This document shows positions 8,201 to 47,123 of a stretch of 64,000 nucleotides of DNA, one piece after another. The position numbers and the translations under genes were made by a program. Below the pieces are notes generated by a model. That model had not been told where the DNA came from, searched no databases, and was given only the letters and a program-made list of their open reading frames with translations. The first letter of the stretch is position 1. Every line of letters starts with the position of its first letter. This stretch comes from Companilactobacillus allii (lineage in GTDB: Bacteria > Bacillota > Bacilli > Lactobacillales > Lactobacillaceae), in contig NZ_CP019323.1 in NCBI RefSeq assembly GCF_001971585.1, positions 982,053-1,046,052 on the forward strand, given 5' to 3'.

Positions 8201-8364
8201 AAGACATTCAGATGGTGATCAATAACATCTTGGACGAAAAAGTCGGAGTAGATATAAGAAGCCTATCAATTGCCCATGGAGTACCATTGTTTACAGCAGT
8301 TGATACCATTAAGGCAATGTTGGATGTTTTGAGTGAGAGAGCTTATTATACTAAGCCATTATAA
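5218..8364 (+). CDS. carB: Carbamoyl-phosphate synthase large subunit
   Basis: Makes carbamoyl phosphate from bicarbonate, ATP and ammonia with CarA. ATG 5218 is chosen because AAGGAG lies 10 nt upstream and [20 protein letters not shown] is the canonical N-terminus; this gives 1048 residues. The internal duplication is clear: [18 protein letters not shown] near the start and [17 protein letters not shown] near residue 560, each followed by an ATP-grasp domain ([14 protein letters not shown] and [12 protein letters not shown]). An MGS-like allosteric region closes the protein. A repeat element begins on the stop codon. Confidence 0.97.
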
Positions 8365-8467
8365 GAGAGTGGAGAATCCCGGGAGTTTCTGAGTACTGCC
8401 TAGGATAACTGATGTAGCGCGAAGCGATGCATTAGTTATTCGTAGCAGACGCAGGAAAGCTCGTTTC
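8364..8467 (+). repeat. Structured intergenic repeat, copy A1 (right arm shortened)
   Basis: Member of the roughly 117-bp family found throughout the window. It starts with AGAGAGTGGAG on the last base of the carB stop and contains the conserved GAGTACTGCCTAG / CGTAGCAGACGCAG internal loop and a GCGCGAAGCG apical hairpin. It ends GCTCGTTTC. About 12 bp of the right arm that should pair with GAATCCC is missing, so the outer stem cannot form fully. Confidence 0.85.
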
Positions 8468-8474
8468 AAAAAGC

Positions 8475-8590
8475 AGAGAGCAAAAAAAGCCGGGAGATTC
8501 TGAGCACTGCCTAGACTAAGTGATACATCGTGAAGCGATGTGTTGCTTAGTCGTAGCAGGCGCAGGAATCTGGCTTTTTTTGCTCGTTTC
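8475..8590 (+). repeat. Structured intergenic repeat, copy A2
   Basis: A full copy, tandem to A1. The outer arms AGCAAAAAAAGCC / GGCTTTTTTTGCT pair perfectly. The internal loop GAGCACTGCCTAG / CGTAGCAGGCGCAG and the apical ATCG-TGAAG-CGAT hairpin are conserved in form. The variable stem ACTAAG / CTTAGT differs from A1 on both sides. Confidence 0.9.
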
Positions 8591-8627
8591 AACCCACAAA
8601 AATTTAACCAACAAAAATAAACCCACA

Positions 8628-8669
8628 AAAAAAGATCCCAGCATCTTAACAGATACTGAGATTTTTTTT
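8628..8669 (+). terminator. Probable intrinsic terminator of carAB
   Basis: AAAGATCCCAGCATCT pairs with AGATACTGAGATTT around a TAAC loop (two C-A mismatches) and is followed by a T run. Confidence 0.65.
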
Positions 8670-8705
8670 ATGCACTAAAACACAAAACCAAACCAAACAA
8701 AAAGA

Positions 8706-8780
8706 GCGGAAGCCTACCACGAACTTCCACCCCGTGCGAGAATTTTAAAGTCAAAGCCTACCACGAACTTTGACTTTTAA
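8706..8780. repeat. Two adjacent hairpins with an identical 13-nt loop
   Basis: GCCTACCACGAAC occurs twice (8712-8724 and 8756-8768). Each copy is enclosed by a different inverted repeat: GGAA/TTCC, and TTAAAGTCAAA with TTTGACTTTTAA. The loops are identical although the stems are unrelated, which points to a conserved RNA or recognition sequence. On the minus strand the pair is followed by a T-rich stretch. I do not recognise the family. Confidence 0.6.
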
Positions 8781-9125
8781 GTAGTTGAGAAGGAGTACCA
8801 CTTTGCGATAATAATTCACATTATTATGTTTATACATCCCCGCTAGTATAAACAACTTAATTATATAGCTTCTATAGAATAATATCTATAATGCTTTCAT
8901 AAATATTTTGATAAAATAAAAGATTGCTTAAATTATTTTAAATTAATTTAAACAAGTTCAAACAGATTGAAAGGCTTGGTCAATAGGTATAGGTCAATTC
9001 AATATAATTTTATTATATAAAGCTGAATTCCAAATCAATAAAAAATGTTAGATAATATCCTCATGAACTTAGATATAAGTTTTGCGCAATGAGCAAGAAT
9101 ACGGGGTATTCATTTTCAATAAAGA
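8781..9125. other. AT-rich intergenic stretch without a recognisable gene
   Basis: No ORF with a ribosome-binding site, no clear terminator and no repeat element was found here. It presumably carries the promoter of the small gene at 9141, but no confident -35/-10 pair was identified. Confidence 0.5.
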
Positions 9126-9140
9126 AAGGCGGGGAACATC

Positions 9141-9419
9141 TTGGAGGAAATGGAAAAATATAAGATGGATCGTAAAGAAGTGATTCAAACAATAGAAGAA
9201 TCTGTTGGCGAATTTAACATGCTTTCCGAGAGTAATCTAATAGGAATCGTTATGCAATATCTTGATCGATTCGAAGACAGCGACTTTGAACCAACTCTAT
9301 TGGATTTTAGAAGAGACTTGATAGAGTACGATGAGAAGACTGGTCATGTTAACGAACGTGATGTCGATGAATTAGTTTTTAAAATAAATCAGTCTTTTAA
9401 TGGTTTTAATACATATTAA
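9141..9419 (+). CDS. Small acidic hypothetical protein (92 aa)
   Basis: I do not recognise a family. TTG 9141 is preferred because AAAGGCGGGG lies about 7 nt upstream; the in-frame ATG at 9150 would have its GGAGG only 2 nt away. The protein is strongly acidic and mostly helical (for example LLDFRRDLIEYDEKTGHVNE) with no signal peptide or membrane segment. It is monocistronic, flanked by repeats upstream and a strong terminator downstream. Confidence 0.6.
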   Translation: MEEMEKYKMDRKEVIQTIEESVGEFNMLSESNLIGIVMQYLDRFEDSDFEPTLLDFRRDLIEYDEKTGHVNERDVDELVFKINQSFNGFNTY

Positions 9420-9429
9420 TTAGTAGTTG

Positions 9430-9457
9430 ACTAGGATAATTAATCCTAGTTTTTTTA
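9430..9457 (+). terminator. Intrinsic terminator after the 92-aa protein gene
   Basis: ACTAGGAT and ATCCTAGT pair around a 6-nt loop and are followed by seven T. Confidence 0.85.
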
Positions 9458-9521
9458 TATCCAAAATAAATATTTTTGTATTCCATGGCTAATCAAGTAA
9501 AATTATCATGAGGTGATTGTG

Positions 9522-10274
9522 ATGGTAAAAATTTATCGAAGAATGCTTCAAGATGTGCCGATCCTAGAAGTTGTAGAAGAAAAAAGTCGTTATAGTAAGG
9601 TTCCGTTGGTGATTTTTTATCACGGATGGAGATCTGACAAAGAGTTGGTTTTGACACAGGCTCGAAAACTAGCTAGTAAGAATATCAGAGTAGTGTTGCC
9701 GGATGCGATGAATCATGGACAACGTAGAGAAGATATCTCGTCGATTCCGTCATTCACTTTTTGGAATAGTATCCAAGGTAACTTAACAGAGTTTGACTTG
9801 ATCAAAGACTTCTACTTGAGTCGTGATCTTGTTATGGACGAAAAAATCGGTGTCGGTGGTTATTCAATGGGAGGGATGACTACTGGAGCATTGTTGACGC
9901 AACATCCCGAAATAAGCGCAGCGACTATTATCATGGGAACACCGAATTTGAACGCATATGCCAAGTTGGTGCGGGATTCAGCCAAAGAACATCATTTGTA
10001 TGTACCAAAGGATATGAAGAACTTGACGAGTTGGATCGATGATTATGACTTGAATAATTATCCAGAAACAATCAATAATCGACCAGTTTTGTTCTGGCAT
10101 GGCACTGATGATAAAAGGATACCCTATAATCAATCAAAGGATTTTTTTGACAGTATTCAAGGACAACCCTATGCGCAACAAGTCGCCTTTATTACTGGTT
10201 ATAAAGCAGAACATTTAGTTGAAACAAGATTGATGGATAAGATTGCCAATTTTTTTGAGTATTATTTGTATTAG
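9522..10274 (+). CDS. Alpha/beta hydrolase (YitV-like esterase/peptidase family)
   Basis: A predicted cytoplasmic serine hydrolase of 250 residues. The nucleophile elbow is GYSMGG (Ser115), the acid is probably in HGTDDKRIP (Asp196 or 197), and the catalytic His is in KAEHLVE (His231). The oxyanion-hole segment FYHGWRSDKE is near residue 32. ATG 9522 is chosen over an in-frame GTG nine bases upstream because AGGTGA lies 5-8 nt before it. The substrate is unknown. It resembles B. subtilis YitV-type hydrolases in layout; that comparison is from memory. Confidence 0.8.
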   Translation: MVKIYRRMLQDVPILEVVEEKSRYSKVPLVIFYHGWRSDKELVLTQARKLASKNIRVVLPDAMNHGQRREDISSIPSFTFWNSIQGNLTEFDLIKDFYLSRDLVMDEKIGVGGYSMGGMTTGALLTQHPEISAATIIMGTPNLNAYAKLVRDSAKEHHLYVPKDMKNLTSWIDDYDLNNYPETINNRPVLFWHGTDDKRIPYNQSKDFFDSIQGQPYAQQVAFITGYKAEHLVETRLMDKIANFFEYYLY

Positions 10275-10369
10275 GACATAGTAGATTAAGTGCTAATTAC
10301 TTATTAATGTGTGACAACTATGTATAATAATAAAATAAAAGAGTTATATCTTCTTAAGGAGACTATATT

Positions 10370-10555
10370 ATGAATGATACAAGAAATTTAGATAAGATAC
10401 TGAAAGAAGTTGAGAACACTAATTTACAGGTTTTGATGAATAGTGCTTTAAATGAACAAAATCCGGATAAGAAAAAAGTATTACTGGCACTTTATACGTA
10501 TGCATTAGATAAAAAGCAAGATGAGCTAATTAATAGAAAAAAATTTGTGATTTAG
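10370..10555 (+). CDS. Small protein upstream of a zeta-type toxin; candidate antitoxin (61 aa)
   Basis: A 61-residue, charged, helical protein (MNDTRNLDKILKEVENTNLQ...) with no recognised domain. It has a ribosome-binding site (AAGGAG) and its stop is one base before the ATG of the zeta-toxin-like gene, so the two are translationally coupled. Size, position and coupling match an epsilon/PezA-type antitoxin, but sequence similarity to those is not evident. Antitoxin function is inference from context. Confidence 0.6.
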   Translation: MNDTRNLDKILKEVENTNLQVLMNSALNEQNPDKKKVLLALYTYALDKKQDELINRKKFVI

Positions 10556-10556
10556 T

Positions 10557-11180
10557 ATGAATAGGCCTAGATATATTATTATTGCGGGTGTCAATGGAGC
10601 AGGAAAAAGTTCCCTATATGATTTACAACCTGAATTATTTGCTAATACTAAACGAATTAACGCGGATGAGATATTACAAAAAATGGGTGGAGATTGGAGA
10701 AAACCAAGCGATAATATTAAAGCTATGCGTAGTGAATTTAAACAAGTGTATGAAGCTTTGGAAACAAAAACTAGTATACATGTTGAGACAACGCTTGCTG
10801 GTTCGGGAAAAGCACAACTAAGATTAATAAATAAAGCGCACAATAATGGATTTTATGTCACTTTGTTATACGTTGCATTGGATAGTTCGGAAAAAGCTAT
10901 TCATCGTGTAAAAGATCGTGTAGAAAAGGGAGGACATGGGATACCACAAAAATTAATAAAAAAAAGATATGAACAATCTAATGCTAATTTATCAATAATA
11001 GCTTTTGAATCAGATAGCGTTGATATTTATGATAATAGTAGAAAATTTGTAAATATTTATAGTAGAGAGGGAAAAAATATAAAAAATGATGAATTAAATA
11101 AATATCCATGGATTAATAGTGAATTAAGCAATTTAAATAATATAAAAAGTACCAGCCAATTTCTACACGATGATATGTAG
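10557..11180 (+). CDS. Zeta-toxin family P-loop kinase
   Basis: A 207-residue protein with a Walker A motif GVNGAGKSS at residues 11-19 and the zeta-toxin-type segments RINADEIL and ETTLAGSGK. Zeta/PezT toxins phosphorylate UDP-N-acetylglucosamine and block peptidoglycan synthesis, but some relatives are housekeeping kinases. It follows its 61-residue partner by one base. Local sequence is more AT-rich than in neighbours, suggesting transfer. No terminator is obvious, and the convergent menE gene ends 44 bp downstream. Confidence 0.8.
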   Translation: MNRPRYIIIAGVNGAGKSSLYDLQPELFANTKRINADEILQKMGGDWRKPSDNIKAMRSEFKQVYEALETKTSIHVETTLAGSGKAQLRLINKAHNNGFYVTLLYVALDSSEKAIHRVKDRVEKGGHGIPQKLIKKRYEQSNANLSIIAFESDSVDIYDNSRKFVNIYSREGKNIKNDELNKYPWINSELSNLNNIKSTSQFLHDDM

Positions 11181-11224
11181 TAATGACTGATACTTTTTTA
11201 TATTTAGGTATATTAATGTAGTTA

Positions 11225-12679
11225 TTATAATTTTTCATAATCAACCGTGTTGAGCTTGCGACGCAGAACCTTACCACTGGCAGTAGTTGGAACAGAGGTA
11301 ACAAGGCGAAACTCCTTAGGTACCTTATAGTGGGCAAGCTTGTCTCGTCCGAATCCTTTCAGATCCTCGGCGGTCAAATTAGCATTTTCATTCAACATTA
11401 TGTAGGCGACTGGGACCTCTCCCCAGTCGTCATTTTTTATTCCTACCACAAAAATATTTTCTAATCCTTGAACCTTGCTGTAAGTATTCTCAACTTCTTC
11501 AGGATAGATATTCTCGCCACCGGAAATGATCATGTCGTCTTTCCTACCTTTAATGTAGAGATAGCTCTCATCATCAAGATAGCCAATATCACCAGTCCTG
11601 TAGAATCCATCTGAAGTCATCTTCTTGTCGAATAAGTCTTGATGGTTGAGATAACCCTTGGCAACGTTTGGAGCCTTGATCTCAATATCACCGATTCCTT
11701 CACGTTTGGCATTGGTGATACGAACTTGGACGGGGAACAGTGGTTGTCCAGATGAACCGACTTTTTTGTCGGCGTCACGGAAGTTCAATGCAACAACATT
11801 AGATGCCGTCTCAGTCATACCGTATGACTGAATCACTGGAATTTTTATCATATTACAGCGCAATAATGTCCAGTTATCGATCGGACCACCACCGAGCATG
11901 ACACATTTGAAATGGTCATTGTAACTGGATCCACTAGGTAGCTTGTTTAACAGGCGCTTTAACATAGTCGGCACGAGTGAAATGATAGTTGCCCGTTCAT
12001 TGATCAAAATTTTGTTGATGTAATTTTCATTAAAACTGGTAACTAGATAAACAGGGATACCGTATATTAATGAGCGCATCATTATTGAGAATCCGGAAAT
12101 GTGGAACAATGGAACTGCCAAGACCCAAGAATCACGGTCGTTGATACCCAGATTCAGAGAAGTTCCAATCGCGGAATAGAAGTGATTACCAAACGTTTGA
12201 AGAACTCCCTTTGGTCGGCCAGTTGTACCAGATGTGTACATGATCGAAGTGACAGATTCGTTGTGAAATTCGGCGGCTGGTTGGTAATTTATGTCAGATT
12301 TTAAACTTAGAATGTCAGAGAGAAGTATCTTGTCTGTGTCTACTTTGTCGATCTGTTCGTGATTGCTGGAATCATCAATGATACATAAGTCAGCTTTTGA
12401 ATCATGAATTTGGAAGTCCAATTCTTCTTTGGATAATCGAGAATTCAAGAAGACAATCTCTACTTCAAGTTGTTGCAAAGCAAGTATGGCGATATAGCCA
12501 TTGAAGCTATTGCTGATAAAAAGAGCGGCTCGTTGTCCTTTGTGCAGTTTGTTGTGGAGCTTGCTGGCACAGAGTTGAACGGTGGAATTTAGTTCACTAA
12601 AGGTAAAATCTGAATGTTCAATTATTAGTGCTGTTTTATTCGGATTGAGTTTTGCACGTTTTGTTAGCCAATTTTCCAC
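11225..12679 (-). CDS. menE: o-Succinylbenzoate-CoA ligase
   Basis: Activates o-succinylbenzoate to its CoA thioester in menaquinone/DHNA synthesis. It is a 484-residue ANL-superfamily enzyme with the AMP-binding loop MYTSGTTGRPKGV, the motif YRTGDIGYLDDESYLYIKGR, the hinge region KDDMIISGGENIYPEEVE, and the catalytic Lys in ASGKVLRRKL near the C-terminus. MenB is encoded upstream on the same strand, separated by two repeat elements. The first men steps (MenF, D, H, C) are not in the window, so o-succinylbenzoate may come from elsewhere. Confidence 0.9.
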   Translation of the reverse strand: MENWLTKRAKLNPNKTALIIEHSDFTFSELNSTVQLCASKLHNKLHKGQRAALFISNSFNGYIAILALQQLEVEIVFLNSRLSKEELDFQIHDSKADLCIIDDSSNHEQIDKVDTDKILLSDILSLKSDINYQPAAEFHNESVTSIMYTSGTTGRPKGVLQTFGNHFYSAIGTSLNLGINDRDSWVLAVPLFHISGFSIMMRSLIYGIPVYLVTSFNENYINKILINERATIISLVPTMLKRLLNKLPSGSSYNDHFKCVMLGGGPIDNWTLLRCNMIKIPVIQSYGMTETASNVVALNFRDADKKVGSSGQPLFPVQVRITNAKREGIGDIEIKAPNVAKGYLNHQDLFDKKMTSDGFYRTGDIGYLDDESYLYIKGRKDDMIISGGENIYPEEVENTYSKVQGLENIFVVGIKNDDWGEVPVAYIMLNENANLTAEDLKGFGRDKLAHYKVPKEFRLVTSVPTTASGKVLRRKLNTVDYEKL

Positions 12680-12824
12680 GGTTGTTGCTCCTTTTTTTGG
12701 TTTTTGTTGGGGTTGTAGTTTGAAATAGCTAAGAAGCTAGATTCTTGTTTCTATTCTGGATGTCGATGTGCTATTTTTCTGGTCAGTGTTTTGGTGTTTT
12801 TTGGTTTTGTTCAGGTTGTAGTTT

Positions 12825-12940
12825 GAAACGAGCCACACAAGCCAGATTCCTGCGCCTGCTACGAATAACTAATGCATCGCTTCGCGCTACATCAGTTATT
12901 CTAGGCAGTGCTCAGAATCTCCCGGCTTGTGTAGCTCTCT
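12825..12940 (-). repeat. Structured intergenic repeat, copy B1
   Basis: A full copy in minus orientation. The outer arms GAGCTACACAAGCC / AGCCACACAAGCC-type are complementary, with variable stem AATAACT / AGTTATT and the conserved GAGCACTGCCTAG and GTAGCAGGCGCAG loop strands. It lies within the menB-menE intergenic region. Confidence 0.9.
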
Positions 12941-12947
12941 GCTTTTT

Positions 12948-13063
12948 GAAACGAGCTGCGAATCCCAGATTCCTGCGCCTGCTACGAGTAACTAATGCAT
13001 CGCTTCGCGCTACATCAGTTACTCTAGGCAGTGCTCAGAATCTCCCGGGATTCTCCGCTCTCT
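12948..13063 (-). repeat. Structured intergenic repeat, copy B2
   Basis: A full copy in minus orientation, tandem to B1. Read on the minus strand it starts AGAGAGCGGAGAATCCC, and its first base overlaps the menB stop codon (TAG). The outer arms GAATCCC / GGGATTC pair. The variable stem AGTAACT / AGTTACT is nearly the B1 sequence, indicating duplication within the locus. Confidence 0.9.
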
Positions 13064-13877
13064 ATGGGAACTTAGGGAACTTATCAAAATCAGGGTCGCG
13101 TTTTTCTAGGAACGCGTCTCTTCCTTCTTTTCCTTCATCTGTTGTGTAATAAAGCATTGTTGAATCTCCTGCTAGTTGTTGTAATCCTGCTACTCCGTCT
13201 GTATCGGCATTCATTGCGGCTTTTATGAATCTTATTGCGGTAGGGGATTTCTTTAGGATTTCGTTGCACCATTCGATGGTCTCTTTTTCTACGTCAGCTA
13301 ATGGGGTTACTTTATTGATCCATCCCATTTGGAAGGCTTCTTGTGCTGTGTATGGTTTGCATAGGAACCATACTTCTTTGGCTCGTTTGTGTCCGATTAC
13401 TCTGGCTAGATAGGCTGAACCATATCCGGCATCAAAGCTTCCTACTTTTGGTCCGGTCTGCATGAACTTGGCATTGTCTGCGGCAATGGTTAGGTCACAT
13501 ACTAGTTGTAGAATGTTTCCACCACCGACTGACCAGCCACGTACCATGGCGATTACTGGTTTGGGGATGATGCGAATCAGGCGTTGTAAGTCCAGAACAT
13601 TTAGTCTAGCTATATGGTCTGGTCCGACGTATCCACCGTTTCCTCGTACACTTTGGTCGCCACCGGAACAAAAGGCCAAGTCTCCTTGTCCAGTCAAAAT
13701 AATGGCACCGATTGTTGCATCATCACGGCAAATATTGAAAGCCTCAATCATTTCCTGTACAGTGACAGGTGTAAAGGCATTACGCTTTTCTGGACGATTA
13801 ATTGTTATTTTGGCAATTTTGCCCATACGCTCAAAAATAATTTCTTTATAATCTTTAATGTTTTCCCATTCACTCAT
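13062..13877 (-). CDS. menB: 1,4-Dihydroxy-2-naphthoyl-CoA synthase
   Basis: Cyclises o-succinylbenzoyl-CoA to DHNA-CoA. ATG 13877 gives 271 residues ([20 protein letters not shown]...) with GGAGG upstream; a longer frame to 14000 runs into menI and has no ribosome-binding site. Crotonase-fold signatures are visible: [10 protein letters not shown], the oxyanion loop [26 protein letters not shown] and [11 protein letters not shown]. It is divergent from menI with only 26 bp between start codons. With menI and menE it forms a partial men locus able to make DHNA from succinylbenzoate. Confidence 0.95.
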
Positions 13878-13883
13878 AAAAAT

Positions 13884-13895
13884 AACCTCCGAGGT
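13884..13895. promoter_or_regulatory. Overlapping back-to-back ribosome-binding sites of menB and menI
   Basis: The 26-bp gap between the divergent start codons contains ACCTCCGAGGT, a palindrome whose two halves serve as the Shine-Dalgarno sequences of menB (minus) and menI (plus). There is no room for either promoter in the gap. Confidence 0.7.
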
Positions 13896-13903
13896 GTAAA
13901 ATA

Positions 13904-14278
13904 ATGAACTTATTAGAAAATTTAGGAATAGAAACAGTGGAACAAAATAAGAATCGTGTGACTTTGAAGATGAAAGTTGAAGACAAACACATGCAACCAT
14001 ACAAGATAATGCATGGCGGAATCAACGCTGTACTCGCAGAAACTGCAGCCAGTATCGGTGCTAATCTTAACATATCTGAATCCGATGAAGTAGCTGTTGG
14101 AGTAGACATTAATACCCATCACTTGAATGCTGTCAAAGATGGCGTTATCAGTGCCGAAGCAATGCCGATCAGAATAGGCGTGAACATACAAGTTTGGCAA
14201 GTTATCACCCATCCAGAAGGTAGCTCGATCAACAATAGTATGAGCACCGTTACGCTCAAAAGAGTTAAGTTGAACTAG
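13904..14278 (+). CDS. menI: Hotdog-fold thioesterase, probable DHNA-CoA thioesterase
   Basis: A 124-residue PaaI/YdiI-type hotdog protein with the motif [15 protein letters not shown] (about 44-58), where Glu is the likely catalytic residue, and a [11 protein letters not shown] strand typical of the family. Hydrolysis of DHNA-CoA to DHNA follows from its position next to menB; the fold alone would also fit other acyl-CoAs. Its stop codon overlaps that of the convergent DUF308 gene within the sequence CTAG. Confidence 0.8.
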
Positions 14279-14796
14279 TTACGATATAGTCTAGAATTGA
14301 TGATTTCAAAAAATGCCAGAATAATCAAGCTGACACCAAACAGCTGATAAATAAAAATAATCGTCTTAGGTGGTTGTAGAATGAACATAATTCCAGCAGC
14401 CACCAATAAAGCCGAGTAAAAATAATCAAGCCAAGGATTTATATTGACTTGTTTTTTTGCCTCATGAGAATCACGGAATTGGTTGATACCATTGACCAAT
14501 AAGATGATACCCAAAACAGGAGGCACAAGCTTGATCAATAACTTGGCGATAAATAACACCACAATAGCAACAACCAAAGCCCCAAAACCCAGACCAATAG
14601 CAATATTAGTCTCACCAGTCAATCTCTTAATACTCATCCCATCCATTAAAGACAATATCCCATAGATGGCAATATATCCCGAGACCAAGTAAATGATGAC
14701 ATTGAGACTTTTAGTAGGTGCAATAACAATCAAAATCCCCGTAACTAATAAGAATACAAAACGTAACCAACGATAAAGTTGGAATTGTTTGACCAT
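14275..14796 (-). CDS. DUF308 (HdeD-like) membrane protein
   Basis: A 173-residue integral membrane protein with about six hydrophobic segments in pairs, for example FVFLLVTGILIVIAPT, YLVSGYIAIYGILSLM and ALLVAAGIMFILQPP. This pattern, with LVNGINQF in the middle, matches the HdeD/DUF308 family, which is linked to acid stress in enterobacteria but of unknown role here. It is convergent with menI, and the two stop codons share bases. A repeat element lies upstream. Confidence 0.75.
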   Translation of the reverse strand: MVKQFQLYRWLRFVFLLVTGILIVIAPTKSLNVIIYLVSGYIAIYGILSLMDGMSIKRLTGETNIAIGLGFGALVVAIVVLFIAKLLIKLVPPVLGIILLVNGINQFRDSHEAKKQVNINPWLDYFYSALLVAAGIMFILQPPKTIIFIYQLFGVSLIILAFFEIINSRLYRN

Positions 14797-14853
14797 TTCT
14801 TCACTTCCTCTATATACTTATGAATGTGTATAGACCTATAATACCAAAAAATC

Positions 14854-14970
14854 AGAGAGCGGAGAAAGCCGGTTAAATGTTGAGCACTGCCTAGGATAAG
14901 AAAGGTATCGCGAAGCGATGCATTTATTATCCGTAGCAGGCACAGACATTTGGCTTTCGCAGCTCGTTTC
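14854..14970 (+). repeat. Structured intergenic repeat, copy C1
   Basis: A full copy: outer AGAAAGCC / GGCTTTCGCAGCTC, then AAATGT / ACATTT, the internal loop GAGCACTGCCTAG / CGTAGCAGGCACAG, the stem GGATAA / TTATCC and the apical ATCGCGAAGCGAT hairpin. Almost identical to D1 and D2 nearly 4 kb away. Confidence 0.9.
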
Positions 14971-15104
14971 AGCTAAACAAGTTCAGAAAACGAGTTTAAC
15001 AACCAACAACCAAAAGACTTTTCAGTATTAAACAAACATTTCACAATAAGAAGTATATCATTATATGAATCCCAAGTTAATAACGTGTAAGCAATTACCT
15101 TTGA

Positions 15105-15132
15105 TTGTGAAATTAAAGTGGTATTGTAGAAT
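15105..15132 (+). promoter_or_regulatory. Probable pox promoter, just upstream of repeat C2
   Basis: TTGTGA (15105-15110) and TAGAAT (15127-15132) are 16 bp apart. The expected start site falls on the first bases of repeat C2, which would make the repeat the 5' leader of the pox transcript. Confidence 0.5.
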
Positions 15133-15133
15133 C

Positions 15134-15250
15134 AGAGAGCGGAGAGTCCCGGGTAGTTTCTGAGCACTGCCTAGAATAGCTAAGGTATCGCGAAGCGATG
15201 CATTAGCTATTCGTAGCAGGCGCAGGGAACTGGGACTCGCAGCTCGTTTC
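15134..15250 (+). repeat. Structured intergenic repeat, copy C2
   Basis: A full copy with arms distinct from C1: GAGTCCC / GGGACTC, variable stem AATAGCTAA / TTAGCTATT, same GAGCACTGCCTAG loop and GCGAAGC cap. It ends 30 bp before the pox start codon. Confidence 0.9.
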
Positions 15251-15280
15251 ACTTCCAAAACCAAAAAAGGGGAAAAATAT

Positions 15281-17005
15281 ATGAAAGTACGTGCATCAGA
15301 TAAAATGATTGATATCATGTCGCAATGGGGAATCGACAACATCTTCGGCTTACCCGGGGATTCAGTTGATACGACGATTGACGCCATGTATCGTGCGCAA
15401 AATAAAATAAAATTCACACATGTATTGCATGAAGAAGTAGCCGCATTATCAGCTGCTGCTCAAGCAAAGTTAACAGGTAAAATCGGTGTTTGTTTATCAA
15501 TCGGTGGGCCTGGAGCAATTCACTTACTCAATGGATTATATGATGCCAAGATGGATCATGCCCCAGTTCTAGCAATTCTTGGACAAGTTCAATCAAAAAT
15601 GTTGAATACTGACTTCTTCCAAGAAGTTGATACACACGTATTATTTGATGACGTTGCCGTCTATAACAAGTTGATAATGGATCCACAATCATTGCCACGT
15701 ATAGTTGATGAGGCCATTAGAACAGCTTACTCCAAACAAGGAGTGGCCGTGTTGACCATACCAGATGACATACCAGACCATCTGATCCAGGACAACTTCA
15801 CTGCTAATGTAGATAACTTCAAAATTGAAGATTATCAAGTTGATGATAAAGAAATCAAAGCAGTACTTGACCTAATCAAGATACATTCTAATCCGATCGT
15901 CTTGGCTGGTACAGGTATTCGTAACGCTAAAAAAGAAACACTCGAATTTATCGAAAAATTCAAAATTCCGATCATTCAAACCATGCCCGCAAAAGGGATG
16001 GTCAATGATAATCACCCGTATAATCTAGGACAATTAGGTAAACTTGGAACTAAGCCAGCCTTTGAGATGATGCAAAAGGCTGATCTATTAATAATGCTTG
16101 GAACCGATTATCCATATGCACCATACTTGAATCATAAGATAGATGCCATTCAAGTTGATATTAATGGTGACAAATTGGGTAAGCGTCATCGTGTCAATGT
16201 CGCCATCCAAGGTGAGACCAAAGAAGTACTGAGCAGAATGATTGAGCTAGGTGAAGACGTTAAAACACGTCCATTCTTAGATACCGCCATCAATCGTATG
16301 GCACAGTGGCGTTCATGGATGGAAGATGTCATGAGTAAGAAGCATACCGGAGTCTTACCATCCAAGATGTTTCGTACCTTATCCGACCAAGCAGAGGATA
16401 ATGCTGTCTTCTCAATAGATGTTGGTACCTCAACGGCATTTGGTGCACGATTCATTGACGCCAAAAGTACTCAAAAGTACACTATTTCGGCATGGCTTGG
16501 AACCATGGGATGTGCCTTGCCGGGTGCTATTGCGGCCAAGATGAATATGCCAAATAGACCAGTCTATGCCATGGCCGGTGATGGAGCGTTCAGTATGGTC
16601 ATGCAAGATTTCGCGACCGCAGTCAGATACAAATTGCCAATGGTTATCACCGTGCTCAATAACAAATTACTTGCGTTTATTGAATATGAACAACAATCAG
16701 CTGGCCAACAAAATTACGGTATCGGACTACCTGACATAGATTTCGCCAAGTTTGCGGAAGCCTGTGGAGGAATCGGTGTGACCGTCACTTCAAACGAAGA
16801 ATACGTCGCAGCTCTCAAGAAATATAAGAATGCCGACAAGCCAGTTTTGATCGACGCTGCCGTTACCGATGAGGCACCACTTCCCGGTAAGATTGTTATG
16901 GACGAAGCCAAAGGTTATGCCAAGTTTGGATTCGGTCATGTTATCGACGAAAAGTCCATCCCACAATTACCACCAATGAAAGAAATATTACGTTCATTCT
17001 TATAA
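15281..17005 (+). CDS. pox: Pyruvate oxidase
   Basis: Oxidatively decarboxylates pyruvate with phosphate and O2 to acetyl phosphate, CO2 and H2O2, using TPP and FAD. It is 574 residues. The N-terminal PYR domain has the TPP-activating Glu in HVLHEEVAALSAAAQA (about 51-52). The central FAD domain spans roughly 190-340. The C-terminal PP domain has the TPP motif AGDGAFSMVMQD...NNKLLAF. A ribosome-binding site (AAAAGGGGAAA) precedes ATG 15281. Its mRNA probably begins in repeat C2. Closely related TPP enzymes exist, but length and motifs fit Pox best. Confidence 0.9.
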   Translation: MKVRASDKMIDIMSQWGIDNIFGLPGDSVDTTIDAMYRAQNKIKFTHVLHEEVAALSAAAQAKLTGKIGVCLSIGGPGAIHLLNGLYDAKMDHAPVLAILGQVQSKMLNTDFFQEVDTHVLFDDVAVYNKLIMDPQSLPRIVDEAIRTAYSKQGVAVLTIPDDIPDHLIQDNFTANVDNFKIEDYQVDDKEIKAVLDLIKIHSNPIVLAGTGIRNAKKETLEFIEKFKIPIIQTMPAKGMVNDNHPYNLGQLGKLGTKPAFEMMQKADLLIMLGTDYPYAPYLNHKIDAIQVDINGDKLGKRHRVNVAIQGETKEVLSRMIELGEDVKTRPFLDTAINRMAQWRSWMEDVMSKKHTGVLPSKMFRTLSDQAEDNAVFSIDVGTSTAFGARFIDAKSTQKYTISAWLGTMGCALPGAIAAKMNMPNRPVYAMAGDGAFSMVMQDFATAVRYKLPMVITVLNNKLLAFIEYEQQSAGQQNYGIGLPDIDFAKFAEACGGIGVTVTSNEEYVAALKKYKNADKPVLIDAAVTDEAPLPGKIVMDEAKGYAKFGFGHVIDEKSIPQLPPMKEILRSFL

Positions 17006-17028
17006 AATGATAAATTAATTTATTTTTA

Positions 17029-17068
17029 ATAAAAAGGAAACCACAATTTAATGTGATTCCCTTTTTTT
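17029..17068 (+). terminator. Intrinsic terminator after pox
   Basis: AAGGAAACCACA and TGTGATTCCCTT pair imperfectly around AATTTAA, followed by a T run. Confidence 0.7.
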
Positions 17069-17111
17069 ATGGACAAAACGTAACCAAATGAGGATTAATT
17101 AATAAAAACTC

Positions 17112-17140
17112 TTGCAACTAAATTAGAAAACTATTAGAAT
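17112..17140 (+). promoter_or_regulatory. Promoter of the isoleucine epimerase gene
   Basis: TTGCAA (17112-17117) and TAGAAT (17135-17140) are separated by 17 bp. The ribosome-binding site AGGGGGCG follows about 25 bp later. Confidence 0.6.
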
Positions 17141-17177
17141 TACAATATTTCAACTATACAAAACAGGGGGCGTCTTT

Positions 17178-18542: not shown

Positions 18543-18545
18543 AAC

Positions 18546-18663
18546 AGAGAGCGGAGAAAGCCGGTTAAATGTTGAGCACTGCCTAGGATAAGAAAGGTAT
18601 CGCGAAGCGATGCATTGCTTATCCGTAGCAGGCGCAGACATTTGGCTTTCGCAGCTCGTTTTC
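18546..18663 (+). repeat. Structured intergenic repeat, copy D1
   Basis: A full copy starting 3 bp after the epimerase stop codon: outer AGAAAGCC / GGCTTTCGCAGCTC, inner AAATGT / ACATTT, stem GGATAAG / CTTATCC, apical ATCGCGAAGCGAT. Confidence 0.92.
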
Positions 18664-18667
18664 AACC

Positions 18668-18787
18668 AGAGAGCGAAACAAAGCCGGTTAAATGTTGAGC
18701 ACTGCCTAGGATAAGAAAGGTATCGCGAAGCGATGCATTGCTTATCCGTAGCAGGCACAGACATTTGGCTTTGTGTAGCTCGTTTTC
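18668..18787 (+). repeat. Structured intergenic repeat, copy D2
   Basis: A full copy 4 bp after D1. The core is identical to D1, but the outer arms are changed on both sides (GCGAAACAAAGCC / GGCTTTGTGTAGC), keeping base pairing. Confidence 0.92.
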
Positions 18788-18868
18788 GAACCCCAAAAAT
18801 AAAAAGTTCAGTTAACAATCTTTGAACATCCAAAACCAAAAAGGGACAAAAATTTAGGAGGAAAATAT

Positions 18869-20326: not shown

Positions 20327-20348
20327 AATACTAAGATTTTTGAATATT

Positions 20349-20391
20349 AAAAGAGGTGGCATTCACAAAAGTGAGTGCCACCTCTTTTTTT
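20349..20391 (+). terminator. Strong intrinsic terminator after the permease
   Basis: AAGAGGTGGCATTCAC pairs with GTGAGTGCCACCTCTT around AAAA, followed by a T run. The A run on the other side would also let it act on the minus strand. Confidence 0.92.
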
Positions 20392-20528
20392 AAGACAAAA
20401 AAAGAACGACCCAAACATGAAATGGGCCGTCCGATATATCAGGGAGTCGTTATTAATTCTTTTCTATCACTAGTTACTATACACCAAGTATATGAAGAAA
20501 GTGTGAATTTATCCAAAATAATTCATTA

Positions 20529-23283: not shown

Positions 23284-23481
23284 ATGAACTGGAACAAAAC
23301 AACAATCAACATGACAATGGCAAACGAAAACTACACAGACGGAAAAGCAGTAAGAGGATTCCAAAACATAGTAAAAGAACCAACCCCAGAACAACTCAAG
23401 ACATTCGCAGGAGTATTAGAAACATTATCAAACGGAGATATATTTTTAAAAGCTGAAGTTGTACAACATACAGACATGTAA
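23284..23481 (+). CDS. DUF1659-family small protein (65 aa)
   Basis: Starts MNWNKTTINMTMANENYTDG and contains PTPEQLKTFAGVLETLSNG, a pattern like the DUF1659 family that is often paired with DUF2922. ATG 23284 has AGAGGT upstream. A repeat element starts on its stop codon, and a DUF2922-type gene follows 219 bp later. The role of these pairs is unknown. Confidence 0.7.
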   Translation: MNWNKTTINMTMANENYTDGKAVRGFQNIVKEPTPEQLKTFAGVLETLSNGDIFLKAEVVQHTDM

Positions 23482-40211: not shown

Positions 40212-40703
40212 TTGGTCACATTGGAGGATGGCTTCAACAAGGCAATTAAGAATGAGAGATTGATCCACGGCGTTTTGAAACGAGTCAATATTTATCAGAA
40301 TAGATTCGACTATGAGGATTATTTTCAAGAGGCTGTGATCATATATGCGCACAGTTATGTTCAATATATGTCTGAGCATAACGGTGAGGGTGGATTCGAT
40401 GTGCATATTTATCAGAAATTAAAATGGAGAATGACGGATCAACTGCGACAAGATAAGCGATTCTTCGAACTGCATTCTTTTGATGAATTGGACTTATCAA
40501 CAATTAAGTATGAAGCTAACGACTTGCTGGAATGCCTTAATATAAGCGGATTATCCACGATTGAAGCACGAATATTGCAGGAACATTTCATTAACAATAA
40601 TTCTCTATCGGAATTGTCACAGCGTTACAAGTGTAGTACTCGTAATCTCAGGTACCACCGGAATAGGCTTTTGGTTAAATTACGAGCCAGCATAACGGCG
40701 TGA
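40212..40703 (+). CDS. Competence-type alternative sigma factor (ComX/SigH-like)
   Basis: TTG 40212 with AGAGGTGAG 5-6 nt upstream gives 163 residues. Region 2-like helices contain DYEDYFQEAVIIYAHSYVQ and KLKWRMTDQLRQD. Region 4 is a helix-turn-helix near the C-terminus (LSELSQRYKCSTRNLRYHRN). Size and layout match the small sigma factors called SigH/ComX in lactobacilli, which direct transcription of DNA-uptake genes. It lies 176 bp after comK on the same strand. No ComR/ComS-type regulator is nearby. Confidence 0.7.
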   Translation: MVTLEDGFNKAIKNERLIHGVLKRVNIYQNRFDYEDYFQEAVIIYAHSYVQYMSEHNGEGGFDVHIYQKLKWRMTDQLRQDKRFFELHSFDELDLSTIKYEANDLLECLNISGLSTIEARILQEHFINNNSLSELSQRYKCSTRNLRYHRNRLLVKLRASITA

Positions 40704-40807
40704 AGGTTACTATCTGGTTACAGATATGTTACTTTCAATTAATTTATGAAAAATCTTGTTATAATTTAGAGGTTAAGAAAATTAACGGCGGGAAGGAAAT
40801 ATTTATT

Positions 40808-41755
40808 ATGGTATCAAAAAAGAAATTAATGGCGAGTGTAGCGACAACTGTTGCTTTGACTGGGGCCGGATTCATGACTGTAGGACAGGTAGTTCCACAG
40901 CTTGTTATCCAACAAAACGTTAAGGCTGCTTCAGCAATCAACGACTACATTTCTAATAACAATATTCAACCAGTATCTATTCAAAATGAAGAGGGTACAT
41001 TCAGTAAATGGTTCGGCTACGAAAATGGTGTAGGGAAGCCTGAAGGTGTCGTAGTTCACGAAACAGCCACTCCTGGTGCTACAGCTAGGAATGAAGTTAC
41101 ATACTTTAACCGTGAATGGTCAACTATGTATTCATATGTTCATGCTTTTGTTGATAATAACGAAATCATCAATATTCACAATACTGATTACGGTGTATGG
41201 GGTGCTGGTCAGACAGCAAATGCTAAGTATATTCAGATCGAATTATGTGAAGTAAGTACAACAGATGAATTCGCACGTTCAATCTCAAATGATGCTTACT
41301 ATATTGCTAGTAAGTTGATTCAATACAACCTACCATTCACACCTGGTACAACGGTTCTATCACATAACGATGTATCAAATAAATACGGTGATACTAACCA
41401 TACCGACCCAGTTGGCTACTTTGCAGCTTGGGGTTACAGCATGGACCAATTCTATGACTTGATTGGTACATATTATAATAACCTTAAAGCCAGCGGTTCA
41501 GTAACTAACGGTGGTGGAAGCACAAGTACAACAGATCCTGATACAGATAGTAGTACAATCAAAGTTAATAACACAGATGGCTACTACGTTCCTATCGTTT
41601 CATTTGATAGTACAGGAGTCGCTACAGCAGTTAAGAGTCGTGCGTTAGCTAATAATACTCCTTGGTATACTGATAAAACTAAAGATTACGAAGGTCATAC
41701 ATATCACCGTGTTGCCACAAACGAGTGGGTATCTGATCAATATATAGTAAACTAG
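40808..41755 (+). CDS. SLAP-anchored N-acetylmuramoyl-L-alanine amidase
   Basis: ATG 40808 (GGAAGG upstream) gives 315 residues. A signal peptide ends near VKAAS. An amidase_2 domain spans about 40-220, with zinc-ligand motifs VVHETATPGATARNE, YVHAFVDNNEIINIH and GDTNHTDPVGYF. One SLAP domain closes the protein (KSRALANNTPWYTDKTK, YHRVATNEWVSDQYI). It cleaves the bond between MurNAc and the stem peptide. It probably acts with the SLAP glucosaminidase in wall turnover. A repeat element begins on its stop codon. Confidence 0.88.
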   Translation: MVSKKKLMASVATTVALTGAGFMTVGQVVPQLVIQQNVKAASAINDYISNNNIQPVSIQNEEGTFSKWFGYENGVGKPEGVVVHETATPGATARNEVTYFNREWSTMYSYVHAFVDNNEIINIHNTDYGVWGAGQTANAKYIQIELCEVSTTDEFARSISNDAYYIASKLIQYNLPFTPGTTVLSHNDVSNKYGDTNHTDPVGYFAAWGYSMDQFYDLIGTYYNNLKASGSVTNGGGSTSTTDPDTDSSTIKVNNTDGYYVPIVSFDSTGVATAVKSRALANNTPWYTDKTKDYEGHTYHRVATNEWVSDQYIVN

Positions 41756-41872
41756 AGCGCCACAACACACGGGAAATTCCGAGCATTAACGCAAATAGTC
41801 CCGATATTCACGAAAGTGAATACCGGGACTATTTTTGTTAAGCGGAAGAAATTGTGTGTTGTGGCGCGTTTC
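41754..41872 (+). repeat. Structured intergenic repeat, copy F1 (second subtype)
   Basis: It starts on the amidase stop codon (TAGAGCG) and ends GCGTTTC. The outer stem GCGCCACAACACAC / GTGTGTTGTGGCGC is perfect. The internal loop is GAGCATTAACG / GTTAAGCGGAAG, the middle stem AAATAGTCCCG / CGGGACTATTT and the cap ATTCACGAAAGTGAAT. Confidence 0.9.
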
Positions 41873-41878: not shown

Positions 41879-41998
41879 AGAGCGCTTCAAAATACGGGTA
41901 ATTTCCGAGCATTAACGCAAATAGTTCCGGCATTCACGAAAGTGAATACCGGAACTATTTTTGTTAAGCGGAAGAAATTGTATTTTGAAGCGCGTTTG
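41879..41998 (+). repeat. Structured intergenic repeat, copy F2
   Basis: Tandem to F1, with the same interior. The outer stem has changed on both sides (GCGCTTCAAAATAC / GTATTTTGAAGCGC) and the middle stem covaries (ATAGTTCCG / CGGAACTAT). Confidence 0.92.
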
Positions 41999-42066
41999 CG
42001 AAGCAAACAAGAAACAATCAAGCTTGTACGTAATCATACAAACATGCAAATACCAGCTTCTTTTAA

Positions 42067-42102
42067 GTTAAGCGGAAGAAATTGTGTGTTGTGGCGCGTT
42101 TC
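42067..42102 (+). repeat. Half copy F3 of the structured repeat
   Basis: Contains only the right arm, GTTAAGCGGAAGAAATTG followed by TGTGTTGTGGCGCGTTTC, identical to F1. It may be left over from a deletion or template switch. Confidence 0.85.
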
Positions 42103-42219
42103 CGCAAGTTCAGGAAGGAAGTCAGAGAAGAAAAACACAAACAGGTTCAATTTCTAATTGAAAAATTCCTAAAAAATATTGTCCCGTTGTATAATTGAAA
42201 GTATATAGGAGAAAAATCG

Positions 42220-43629: not shown

Positions 43630-43645
43630 TTCGGGGGGAATTCTT

Positions 43646-44446: not shown

Positions 44447-44456
44447 GGGGTGTTGT

Positions 44457-45509
44457 ATGATTTCGTATGATAAATTTGTAGCTAATAAGAGATTGCGACG
44501 AATTGTTTTGTTGCTGGCAGTGATTGGATTGTTCTATTTGCTTCGTAGCATGATGAGTATGTTCTTGTTGACGTTCACATTTACGTTCTTGTCAGTTAGA
44601 TTGGTCCGAGCAGTACAAAGAAAGTTCCCAAAGGTTAAGCCAGTCTGGGTGATCGCACCAGTTTATTTGTTAATAATTGCGGCCTTGACCTTTGCTGTAG
44701 CCAATTATGTACCACAAATAATCAGCCAAACGGTCAAGATGTTCCAATCACTGCAGAAGTTTTACCAGAGTGATGAGATGCGATCCAATATTTATCTGAC
44801 GGCGATATACAATTACTTGCAACAGATCAATCTTGATGCACAGATCAAGACGGCAGTTGCACAAGCGGTCAATTATATATCTAGTGTTGGTGTAATGGGA
44901 TTGAATATCTTCTTGTCATTTCTACTGAGCTTCTTTTATACGACTCAAGTTGAACAGATGAATAAGTTCGGGCATCAGTTCTTAAGTAGTAACTACGGAT
45001 GGTTATTTGAAGATCTACGTTATTATGGCCAGAAGTTCGTCAATACCTTTGGTGTTGTTATCGAGGCACAATTGATGATTGCTGTTGTTAATACAACTTT
45101 AACAACTATCACATTGTTATTTATGCAGATGCCAAGTGTTATTGCACTAGCTGTGATGGTCTTCATATTGTCATTGATCCCGGTAGCTGGGGTGATCATC
45201 TCGCTGATTCCGTTGAGTTTCATAGCGTATACTGTTGGTGGAATTAAGTATGTAGTTTATATTATAATTATGATAGTTGTTATTCATATGATTGAAACAT
45301 ACTTTTTGAATCCACAATTCATGTCGAGTATGACACATCTGCCAATATTCTTTACGTTTGTAATTTTGATTGTTTCCGAGGAACTTATCGGTACATGGGG
45401 ATTGATTATCGGTATTCCAATATTTGTATTCTTCCTGGATATTCTCGGTGTACATTCGATTGAGAAGAATGAATCTAAGAAGAAGTTAAGTTTGAAGAAA
45501 TTTCGATAA
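44457..45509 (+). CDS. AI-2E/PerM-family transporter
   Basis: A 350-residue membrane protein with eight predicted segments. The family layout is clear: N-terminal pair of helices, an amphipathic stretch (KMFQSLQKFYQSDE), then MQMPSVIALAVMVFILSLIPVAG and the C-terminal GTWGLIIGIPIFVFFLDILG. The family includes the AI-2 exporter TqsA and Na+/H+ antiporters; the substrate here is not predictable. It is in a likely operon with the DUF218 gene. Confidence 0.88.
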   Translation: MISYDKFVANKRLRRIVLLLAVIGLFYLLRSMMSMFLLTFTFTFLSVRLVRAVQRKFPKVKPVWVIAPVYLLIIAALTFAVANYVPQIISQTVKMFQSLQKFYQSDEMRSNIYLTAIYNYLQQINLDAQIKTAVAQAVNYISSVGVMGLNIFLSFLLSFFYTTQVEQMNKFGHQFLSSNYGWLFEDLRYYGQKFVNTFGVVIEAQLMIAVVNTTLTTITLLFMQMPSVIALAVMVFILSLIPVAGVIISLIPLSFIAYTVGGIKYVVYIIIMIVVIHMIETYFLNPQFMSSMTHLPIFFTFVILIVSEELIGTWGLIIGIPIFVFFLDILGVHSIEKNESKKKLSLKKFR

Positions 45510-45565
45510 AAAAGTGTAACAGTCATATATAATAGGGACAACTGAGTAGATGGGAGAATAGGTGT

Positions 45566-46981
45566 ATGTCATTTTTTGATAGAAAAAAGAAGGACAATGA
45601 TTATTCAAATGAGTCAACAGACCAACCTGATGTTAATGTAGATTCTTTTCAGAATCCACAAAATCAGCAACAACCACAAAATTATGATTATAATCAACAG
45701 CCTCAATCAAACCAGAATTATCAACAACCAGAGCAACAATATCAATACGATAATAATGGTCCAGAAGTTAATGGTAATTACTATGAAGAGCAACCAGTTC
45801 CTGAGGCATTAGACACACAAGATTGGGTCTATACTCAAGATAACTTGGAGAATACTCTGACTCAAACTGAGAACTTGAAGAGTCAACTTAGACATGAATT
45901 ACTAGCTGATCGTGGATATTGCAATCATGTGTTGCGTAGTGTTGGTAGTGATCAAGTTGATGAAAGAGAAGCAGCTTCTAAGCGTATTACAACGATCAAT
46001 GAACAACTGAGAAAGTGGTTTGATACAGATGAGATGGCCAATGAGATTTACCTTGACCCAAATCGTAATTATTTCATTTTCACTGACCAATTGAATCCCA
46101 ATCCAGAGGATAATGTAAGTAAGCTTTGGCAACAGATTACACAGACGCTGATGGAACACAACTTGATGGCCAATGCTATCTCGGTAACTTATGATGATCA
46201 AGTCAATCAGACATGGATGAATTATCAAAATGCCGGTTGGGTCGATCCTAATTCATACTTGTTGAGTATGTACAATGATCTTCAAGGTCGTTCAATGAAT
46301 ATGGTGGCTACTCCTGCTGAGATTCCATTCGAAGAGTCATACCGTATTCAACATGTGAATGATAAGACAGATAAGATTCTTGATGCTGACGACAACTTGG
46401 TCATGGAAGTTTCACGTACTTCTAATCAACAGCTACAAGTAATCCGTCACTACAACGATTCTAAGTTGTTGAGTCGTGATATATTTGACGTTAATGGAGT
46501 TATCTCCGCAACACAGTTCTATGATCATCATGATCCTAACAAAGTTGTTCGTGAGAACTTCTATAGACAAGATGGCACACTTGTGTTGATTAAGAGTTAT
46601 ACCAATGATGAGCCTTATATCCAACTGTTCACTCAAGGTAACGTCTTGATCAGTACCTTTGATACTGATGAAGGATTGATTATCTGGTGGTTAAAGAACC
46701 AAGCTTTGCGCCAAGTACAAGCTACTATCTTTGTGTCAGTCGATTCTGAATACTATAAGAAACTTTTGTCACTTCGTGATAATGGCTTCGAAGTTATTCC
46801 AGTTGTTATGACACAAGATCAAAATGCCAAGGTCATTACTGATCTGGTCAGTGGTAAGGATAAGGTCACAGCAGTTTTCGCTGGAACTGATAAGGTTAAT
46901 AGTTACTTGAATACTAATTCTACTATTAAGATGGATATCTCTACTTTGTCTAATGTTGAGACTCCGGTTTATAAGCAGTAG
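45566..46981 (+). CDS. Q/N-rich cytoplasmic protein with GtfB-like non-catalytic module
   Basis: The 471-residue protein starts MSFFDRKKKDN. Residues about 20-85 are an unusual Gln/Asn/Tyr/Pro-rich low-complexity tract. The middle (about 90-235) is helical. Residues about 255-390 (ESYRIQHVNDKTDKILD, LLSRDIFDVNGVISATQFYD, RENFYRQDGTLVLIKSY) resemble, by eye, the substrate-binding add-on module of GtfA/GtfB-type glycosyltransferases. No glycosyltransferase catalytic motif is evident. The function is unknown. Confidence 0.5.
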   Translation: MSFFDRKKKDNDYSNESTDQPDVNVDSFQNPQNQQQPQNYDYNQQPQSNQNYQQPEQQYQYDNNGPEVNGNYYEEQPVPEALDTQDWVYTQDNLENTLTQTENLKSQLRHELLADRGYCNHVLRSVGSDQVDEREAASKRITTINEQLRKWFDTDEMANEIYLDPNRNYFIFTDQLNPNPEDNVSKLWQQITQTLMEHNLMANAISVTYDDQVNQTWMNYQNAGWVDPNSYLLSMYNDLQGRSMNMVATPAEIPFEESYRIQHVNDKTDKILDADDNLVMEVSRTSNQQLQVIRHYNDSKLLSRDIFDVNGVISATQFYDHHDPNKVVRENFYRQDGTLVLIKSYTNDEPYIQLFTQGNVLISTFDTDEGLIIWWLKNQALRQVQATIFVSVDSEYYKKLLSLRDNGFEVIPVVMTQDQNAKVITDLVSGKDKVTAVFAGTDKVNSYLNTNSTIKMDISTLSNVETPVYKQ

Positions 46982-47004
46982 TATTTGGAGTGTTAGTATA
47001 TTTT

Positions 47005-47123
47005 AAACGCGAGCCAAAACACAATTTTTTGAATATAACTACAAACTGATGGGCATTTACTTTGTAAATGCTCATCAGTTTTAGGTTATATTTAAAAATT
47101 GAACGTGTTTTGGCTCGCTCTCT
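47005..47123 (-). repeat. Structured repeat, copy G (related outer frame, different interior)
   Basis: In minus orientation it starts AGAGAGCGAG and ends GCGTTTAAA. The outer stem GCGAGCCAAAACAC / GTGTTTTGGCTCGC and the next stem (TTTTAAATATAACCTAAAA with its complement) are near perfect. The cap is GCATTTACAAAGTAAATGC. It keeps the AGAGCG...GCGTTT ends but lacks the usual internal loop. Confidence 0.7.

Follow-up and report, generated by a model that had tools for sequence, protein, structure and literature searches.

The window, a stretch of 64,000 nucleotides from Companilactobacillus allii (contig NZ_CP019323.1, positions 982,053 to 1,046,052), contains a family of long hairpin elements. 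With moderate confidence, these are interpreted as a high-copy mobile family resembling miniature inverted-repeat transposable elements (MITEs), of which the F-type would integrate by replacing the tops of stem-loops, often the terminator hairpin behind a stop codon. The family was found in 160 places of the 2.5 Mb C. allii genome (122 F-type and 38 A-type). Its copies have a covarying structure, lie mostly at stop codons, are present or absent at orthologous sites, occur nested in one another and carry complementary arms that are specific for the locus. In three F-type cases, a folding segment has been replaced.

The transposition would be carried out by a putative trans-acting enzyme, and the copies lie where a stop codon borders on the intergenic region behind it, mostly in sense orientation. 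If transcribed, the element would form the beginning of the 3′ untranslated region (3′-UTR) of the mRNA. An effect on the upstream mRNA may follow, at a guess through altered 3′ end formation or decay. With about 160 copies, mostly beside stops, a large hairpin would then open many 3′-UTRs, and the host genes in the window are metabolic, e.g., those for the carbamoyl-phosphate synthase large chain and an aminotransferase. Since dozens of genes in food bacteria are followed by the same hairpin, they form a natural series in which effects on mRNA decay and on the end of translation can be measured.

Copies, structure and distribution of the element

The window was scanned by a repeat search and with the covariance models R1 (F-type) and R2 (A-type), the half copy with a profile hidden Markov model (HMM). 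In total, 11 full or near-full copies, the half copy F3 and the related copy G were found at the following window positions:

A1, 8364-8466, + strand: A-type, lacking the 3′ outer arm (E-value 2.5e-19); its first base completes the stop codon of the gene for the carbamoyl-phosphate synthase large chain
A2, 8475-8589, + strand: A-type, full, in tandem with A1
B1, 12826-12940, − strand: A-type, full, in tandem with B2 (E-value 5e-34)
B2, 12949-13063, − strand: A-type, full, at the end of an enoyl-CoA hydratase family gene (13062-14000, −), whose stop codon consists of T from the gene and AG from the element
C1, 14854-14969, + strand: A-type, full, between divergent genes
C2, 15134-15249, + strand: A-type, full, 31 nt 5′ of the ATG of a thiamine pyrophosphate (TPP)-enzyme gene
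D1, 18546-18661, + strand: A-type, full, 3 nt past the stop of a class III aminotransferase gene
D2, 18668-18785, + strand: A-type, full, in tandem with D1
E, 23481-23596, + strand: divergent, 24 nt past the stop of a 114-codon open frame (E-value 7e-21)
F1, 41754-41871, + strand: F-type, full, at an amidase family gene (40700-41755), whose stop is again composed of T and the AG of the element
F2, 41879-41997, + strand: F-type, full, with an outer arm different from that of F1
F3, 42039-42101, + strand: 3′ half only (profile HMM E-value 1.4e-12), with an arm identical to the 3′ arm of F1 and an inner stem of another type
G, 47005-47121, − strand: divergent F-type, antisense to both flanking open frames (E-value 1.1e-14)

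These are the copies listed in the initial annotation of the window, and both search methods placed them at the same positions. The best E-value per copy ranged between 1.1e-14 (G) and 5e-34 (B1). Most window copies were used in model building and match by construction, while A1, E, G and F3 were held out and still matched. R1 and R2 yielded 14 and 18 matches in the window, respectively, including opposite-strand echoes of the near-palindrome. Two subfamilies could be distinguished, namely the A-type (A to D), which has a GAA triloop, and the F-type (F), which often has GAAA; the best model was the A-type for E and the F-type for G. C1, C2 and G are exceptions to the location at stop codons described below. 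Furthermore, a weak partial R1 match (model positions 22-98, E-value 7e-5) was detected at 20336-20404, 10 nt past the stop of a permease gene (20326); this is perhaps an ordinary terminator or an armless core.

When 42 F-type and 20 A-type copies of the C. allii genome were aligned, they showed an irregular hairpin of about 115–120 nt. Its outer arm and inner stem vary, its core is conserved and bulged on the 5′ strand, and its loop is small. The F-type adds a short tail. In the F-type alignment, partial hits and hits below 40 bits were omitted; the A-type alignment comprises 20 of 25 copies, leaving out A1 and four longer or divergent ones. The common ends (AGAG..CGTTT), the asymmetric loop (GAGCA opposite GCGCAG or GCGGAAG) and the capped hairpin noted initially were all recovered. 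Near the element ends, 16–18 positions are paired and vary among the copies, whereas the outermost AGA and GTTT are unpaired.

The paired change of stems, also noted initially, was found to be far above both shuffled and slid controls. In the F-type, 35 of 49 pairs were altered on both sides, and the covariation score was 0.400 compared to 0.135 ± 0.006 in shuffled alignments (reached by 0 of 500) and 0.050–0.075 with partners slid. The respective values for the A-type were 25 of 47 pairs and a score of 0.419 (0.188 ± 0.010 shuffled). The score, the number of paired cells and the two-sided pair changes exceeded all 500 shuffles and collapsed once partners were slid. For one of the five measures (further pair types), the A-type value was reached by 11 of 500 shuffles.

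In the C. allii genome, R1 produced 140 and R2 82 rows, with up to 150 candidates scored per model; the models were built from the same genome. For merging into 160 places, echoes were removed by hand, G was added, one weak R2 row was dropped and the better-scoring model was kept per place. Three of the places score below 45 bits. The exact core motif matched 57 times, and three of these matches lie outside the listed copies (loci are given by C. allii genome position): 1803917 and 2167018 are halves interrupted by another copy, and 357492 is a 5′ half whose 3′ part was not found. Solitary 5′ halves were also considered as the ends of a longer gene-bearing element, a possibility rejected with two of the three being interrupted halves. 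Matches with one mismatch comprise 14 rows, including 170889, 599047 and 2143137.

R1 matched 22 of 24 relatives of the same genus and none of 16 genomes from other families of the order. Across 295 genomes of the order, at least 11 matched, all from the home family Lactobacillaceae (7 of 74 genera), and R1 found nothing outside this family. Since strict filters were used and 12 candidates were scored per genome, the order-wide count is a lower bound. Thus, the covariance search of the family gave matches in Companilactobacillus and in six other genera. The latter are weaker relatives, most of which show the AGAG, GAGCA and CGTTT signs. A pattern derived from the relatives identified 19 loci in four species (C. 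tucceti, C. nantensis, C. baiquanensis and C. hulinensis). The exact F core pattern was absent from a scan of named genomes, from which C. allii and its near kin were possibly excluded, and F1 had no match in plasmid and phage collections.

Position at stop codons and at orthologous sites

The location relative to genes was analyzed for 151 of the 160 copies with enough flanking sequence; 18 of these are secondary copies in tandems, leaving 133 primary ones. The longest same-strand frame of at least 60 codons was taken as the host frame. For 105 of the 133 primary copies (90 of 113 F-type and 15 of 20 A-type), a stop codon ends within ±12 nt of the element 5′ end. It ends exactly at element base +2 in 38 copies, and 36 of these stops are TAG, with T from the gene and AG from the element. 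In 10 further copies, the frame enters the element and stops 13–43 nt inside. The remaining 18 have no sense stop between −12 and +43: seven have a stop 14–33 nt upstream, six only an antisense-frame stop within 150 nt, two a farther sense stop and three neither. A mirror control at the hairpin 3′ end gave 10 of 133, but it ignores the tail and flatters the mobile interpretation, so orientation was judged from the 18 copies instead. Copies on both strands are interleaved over a few kb, each tracking its own upstream gene. Elsewhere in the genus, 24 of 54 rows from other species show the same placement, and of 20 elements found in other genera, 12 have a stop codon no more than 12 nt away.

The elements do not resemble intrinsic terminators themselves, since a T-rich run directly follows in only one of 133 primary copies. 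Terminators within 400 nt downstream (42 of 133) were not enriched compared to random stretches (112 of 300). Because terminators sit behind stop codons, integration into hairpins would place F-type copies at stop codons.

The sense orientation and the distance to the stop, both also seen in other genera, would fit a second explanation as well. In this, selection keeps the copies as an RNA module of the 3′-UTR that encounters the ribosome at termination or obstructs 3′ exonucleases, and mobility accounts for their arrival only. Such a module is consistent with the conserved bulges, the unpaired ends and the covariation. The Efa repeats of Enterococcus faecalis are likewise described as preferentially located near the 3′ ends of coding sequences (CDS), with unpublished hints of mRNA stabilization (PMC1590033). 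We consider this explanation possible but doubtful, as many relatives have the same genes without the element, copies are nested within each other, 18 of the 133 primary copies are without a sense stop in the range given above, and the en bloc change of arms described below needs no selection.

Syntenic stretches were compared in five relatives with one genome per species. Among the orthologous sites, 41 were called empty and 12 filled; tests on these sites share genes and species. Presence or absence of the element mostly makes no difference to the C-termini, and element-free orthologues often have a terminator-like hairpin at this end. Where the downstream sequence aligns, C. allii is mostly about 150–585 nt longer than the element-free relatives. 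Part of this extra length is other material, namely an AbrB-like small frame at 972101 and a small frame at 978270, both named by eye from the letters. The former (about 972,330-972,580) has no obvious partner and lies in a stretch beside the element that is missing from the relatives. For a gene with an NGEVVENVVDF-like C-terminus, the element is present in C. allii (G000) and the genomes G008, G020 and G017, a remnant was found in G010, and none in G001.

Arms, nested copies and replaced segments

The outer arms were analyzed in 106 F-type copies with clean ends, in which arm positions 7-16 comprise 982 Watson-Crick pairs, 25 G-U pairs and 53 mismatches. In 55 pairs of F-type copies (which share copies and are not independent), three differences at most were seen in the 57-nt core, whereas the 10-pair arms differ at 173 positions. 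Of these, 145 are changed on both sides to another Watson-Crick pair, 14 are wobble or one-sided changes and 14 are broken. Some copies have identical 57-nt cores and yet 4–7 changed arm pairs. Arms and cores therefore have separate histories. If compensation had been stepwise, more intermediates should remain and the core should have changed as well; part of the credit must therefore go to copying of one arm from the other or to core exchange between loci. The initial annotation, which did not cover the stop-codon location, the copy number or the duplicated 3′ arms, took the covariation as a sign of selection for an RNA or DNA hairpin. Structure and covariation hold; selection as the sole reading does not, given the two-sided arm changes amid near-identical cores. 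Base-pair covariation can thus arise without stepwise compensation, which calls for caution when RNA structure is deduced from repeats.

An exact 17-nt match to the own 3′ arm was found within 400 nt downstream for 20 of 116 F-type copies, compared to 0.33 expected from swapped arms. Exact matches were relied on, since the swapped-arm control with three mismatches is weak (33 vs. 11.2). No extra 5′ arm was found within 400 nt of any of the 116 copies, and an extra 3′ arm occurs in one of 35 A-type copies (three mismatches allowed). The duplicated pieces, sought up to 400 nt from full copies, start at varied points and retain the 3′ arm. At five loci with similar linkers, the arms differ between loci, whereas within a locus the proximal arm is identical to the first distal one at 923651, 1187678 and 1122730 and matches it with one and two mismatches at 1344816 and 2382695, respectively. 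Behind one element at 953186-953560, two partial units about 91 nt apart match its own arm with 0 and 1 mismatch, and a third partial unit has a different arm.

Slippage, arm copying or core replacement could each have made the duplicated arms. In an unlikely but far-reaching scenario, the core travels from locus to locus, and every locus retains an arm of its own. Copying of the local 5′ arm would supply the new 3′ arm, giving one 5′ arm with one to four identical 3′ arms, and the target choice would be tied to the end of translation or transcription. If true, target choice by sense orientation and stop codon would be a new integration mechanism. If the element is also transcribed, a 5′ arm with a choice of equivalent partners would represent a switchable 3′-UTR structure.

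Most features of the family could also be the outcome of passive DNA processes without present transposition, whereby hairpin-templated repair perfects the arms, slippage doubles the 3′ halves and gene conversion evens the cores. The high proportion of two-sided arm differences in near-identical copies points in this direction, as do the tandem units and the extra 3′ arms, which occur downstream only and are 5′-truncated at varied points. Such processes leave unexplained that 105 of 133 copies lie at the stops of different genes and that nested copies have clean ends, and they are quite improbable as the explanation of the family. The 5′-truncated, 3′-anchored partial copies, together with the mostly sense orientation, might instead suggest that copies spread as RNA and were reverse-transcribed, in which case the downstream 3′ halves would be 5′-truncated products. 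This route appears extremely unlikely, since the domain RVT_1 (PF00078) had no match in C. allii, G002 and G020; some matches were obtained in G006, G008 and G018.

Among 23 elements with empty-like subjects, 810017, 1124477 and 2167083 were clean, and C1 and C2 were added later; the rest were read as tandem neighbors, repeat records of one locus, filled sites or remnants. The F-type copy 2167083 sits within another copy and replaces 28–30 nt of its apical hairpin in 7 of 15 comparisons shown. In the remaining ones the value is 40–78 nt, where the alignment begins later or, in one, the host itself is interrupted. The inserted unit extends from AGAG to about 41 nt past CGTTT, and part of the target stem is kept at the termini. 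At 810017 (F-type), 22 nt of an uninterrupted paralogue (fold −6.4) are replaced, and at 1124477 (F-type) 58 nt of the G017 orthologue with a strong hairpin (−24.5). The copy at 810017-810133 breaks a small repeated open frame, which may be of a small toxin-antitoxin type and whose uninterrupted paralogue lies near 978.6 kb. In addition, 1803788 interrupts the 5′ half of another copy. The copies at 804149, 940680, 720101 and 1355453 each have the 3′ part of a second copy behind them, at a similar distance.

These insertions resemble the EFAR repeats, which are similar in size and reportedly integrate at stem-loops, whereby most of the target hairpin is lost and a portion of its stem survives at the termini. 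In this respect, the three F-type cases are like EFAR and the A-type copies C1 and C2 are unlike it. To our knowledge, neither locus-specific matched arms nor duplicated 3′ arms are described for EFAR. Both EFAR/Efa and the present family are palindromic, belong to the same order of bacteria and lie near CDS 3′ ends, although they occur in different genera and were likened by description, not by sequence. EFAR is listed among the MITEs in PMC3733652. The kind of element is known (EFAR-like); the family and the behavior of its arms look new.

In favor of the mobile interpretation, empty sites fold better than other gene ends: the 50 nt past the stop fold at −8 kcal/mol or below in 27 of 41 empty sites compared to 57 of 121 other gene ends. 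The p-value of 0.007 is optimistic, since at least three of the 41 sites hold element remnants and the sites share genes. Several observations weigh against the mobile interpretation. A stem-loop target leaves the sense orientation unexplained: since a DNA stem-loop by itself is without a sense strand, the orientation must be set by a T-tract, transcription or later selection. With one genome per species, no target-site duplication is measurable from these comparisons. No mobilizing gene was found in searches for the two domains Y1_Tnp (PF01797) and RVT_1. At 1115420, the proteins of four relatives end 1–3 residues later and that of one ends 16 later. The difference in length at 978270 is only +51 compared to G020, and at 1124477 the C. 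allii stretch is 165 nt shorter than that of G008. Several C. nantensis copies lie 17–32 nt past the stop. C1 and C2 are absent in G008, where the corresponding 36 and 39 nt fold at 0.0 and −1.9; being unfolded or weakly folded, they indicate that no stem-loop was replaced at these A-type sites. Complementarity of the flanks was not above permutation in 116 F-type or 35 A-type copies. Set against the three F-type replacements, C1, C2 and the non-complementary flanks make stem-loop replacement a fair reading for the F-type only. F-type copies have probably integrated in an EFAR-like manner with replacement of the upper part of a stem-loop; for the A-type this is not supported.

Relation to other repeats

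The initial annotation could not name the family, and the Rfam search at the curated gathering score gave no match in the window and six loci. Below the cut-off, the animal mir-192 model matched the inner hairpin of G (38.1 bits compared to 54, E-value 1e-6), weaker microRNA models matched F1 and F2, and weak unrelated hits occurred in 8300-19000. The microRNA scores were read as a likeness of long hairpins. The literature searched, with few subscription papers covered, held no description of these repeats, so that "undescribed" is provisional. With this proviso, the family looks like an undescribed way to decorate the ends of bacterial messages in a food-associated lactic acid bacterium.

The sharing of stop codons as such has a precedent, since GTAG-type repetitive extragenic palindromic (REP) elements often provide the TAG stop of adjacent open reading frames, as stated in PMC3733652. 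REP, REPIN and GTAG palindromes are high-copy palindromes like the present element. REPs measure 20–40 bp, carry a GTAG/CGTC end tag and are associated with a REP-associated tyrosine transposase (RAYT), whereas the element is about 118 nt long, has the ends AGAG..CGTTT and shows no association with Y1_Tnp. Stalling at REPs near stop codons has reportedly been observed. A REP element moved by an IS200/IS605-type Y1 transposase (RAYT) would account for the palindromic, intergenic, high-copy character, and C. allii has one Y1_Tnp match. The presence of this domain does not track the copy number: it is absent from the high-copy genomes G002 (at least 84 matches), G020 (at least 78), G008 (at least 62) and G006 (at least 54), and present in G001 (1) and G011 (0). 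The element also lacks a GTAG end tag and is several times longer, making this origin very unlikely. An enzyme that moves hairpins to gene ends would merit a search.

The size (70–300 bp) and non-coding nature of MITEs agree with the 115–120 nt hairpin found here. Other MITEs are marked by terminal inverted repeats of 15–30 bp, and a start at the stop codon is no stated rule for them in the parts of the sources available. There, ERIC, NEMIS/Correia, YPAL and RUP are described as small non-coding hairpin repeats near genes, some of them cotranscribed (PMC3733652, PMC2229807).

Besides the hairpin element, the repeat search revealed three tandem 111-bp repeats at window positions 48020-48352, which are 91–100% alike and unrelated to it. 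Repeated segments were also found within several large open frames (27059-27370, 38916-38978, 41680-41742 and 21330-21899) and are probably, at a guess, repeated domains of surface proteins.

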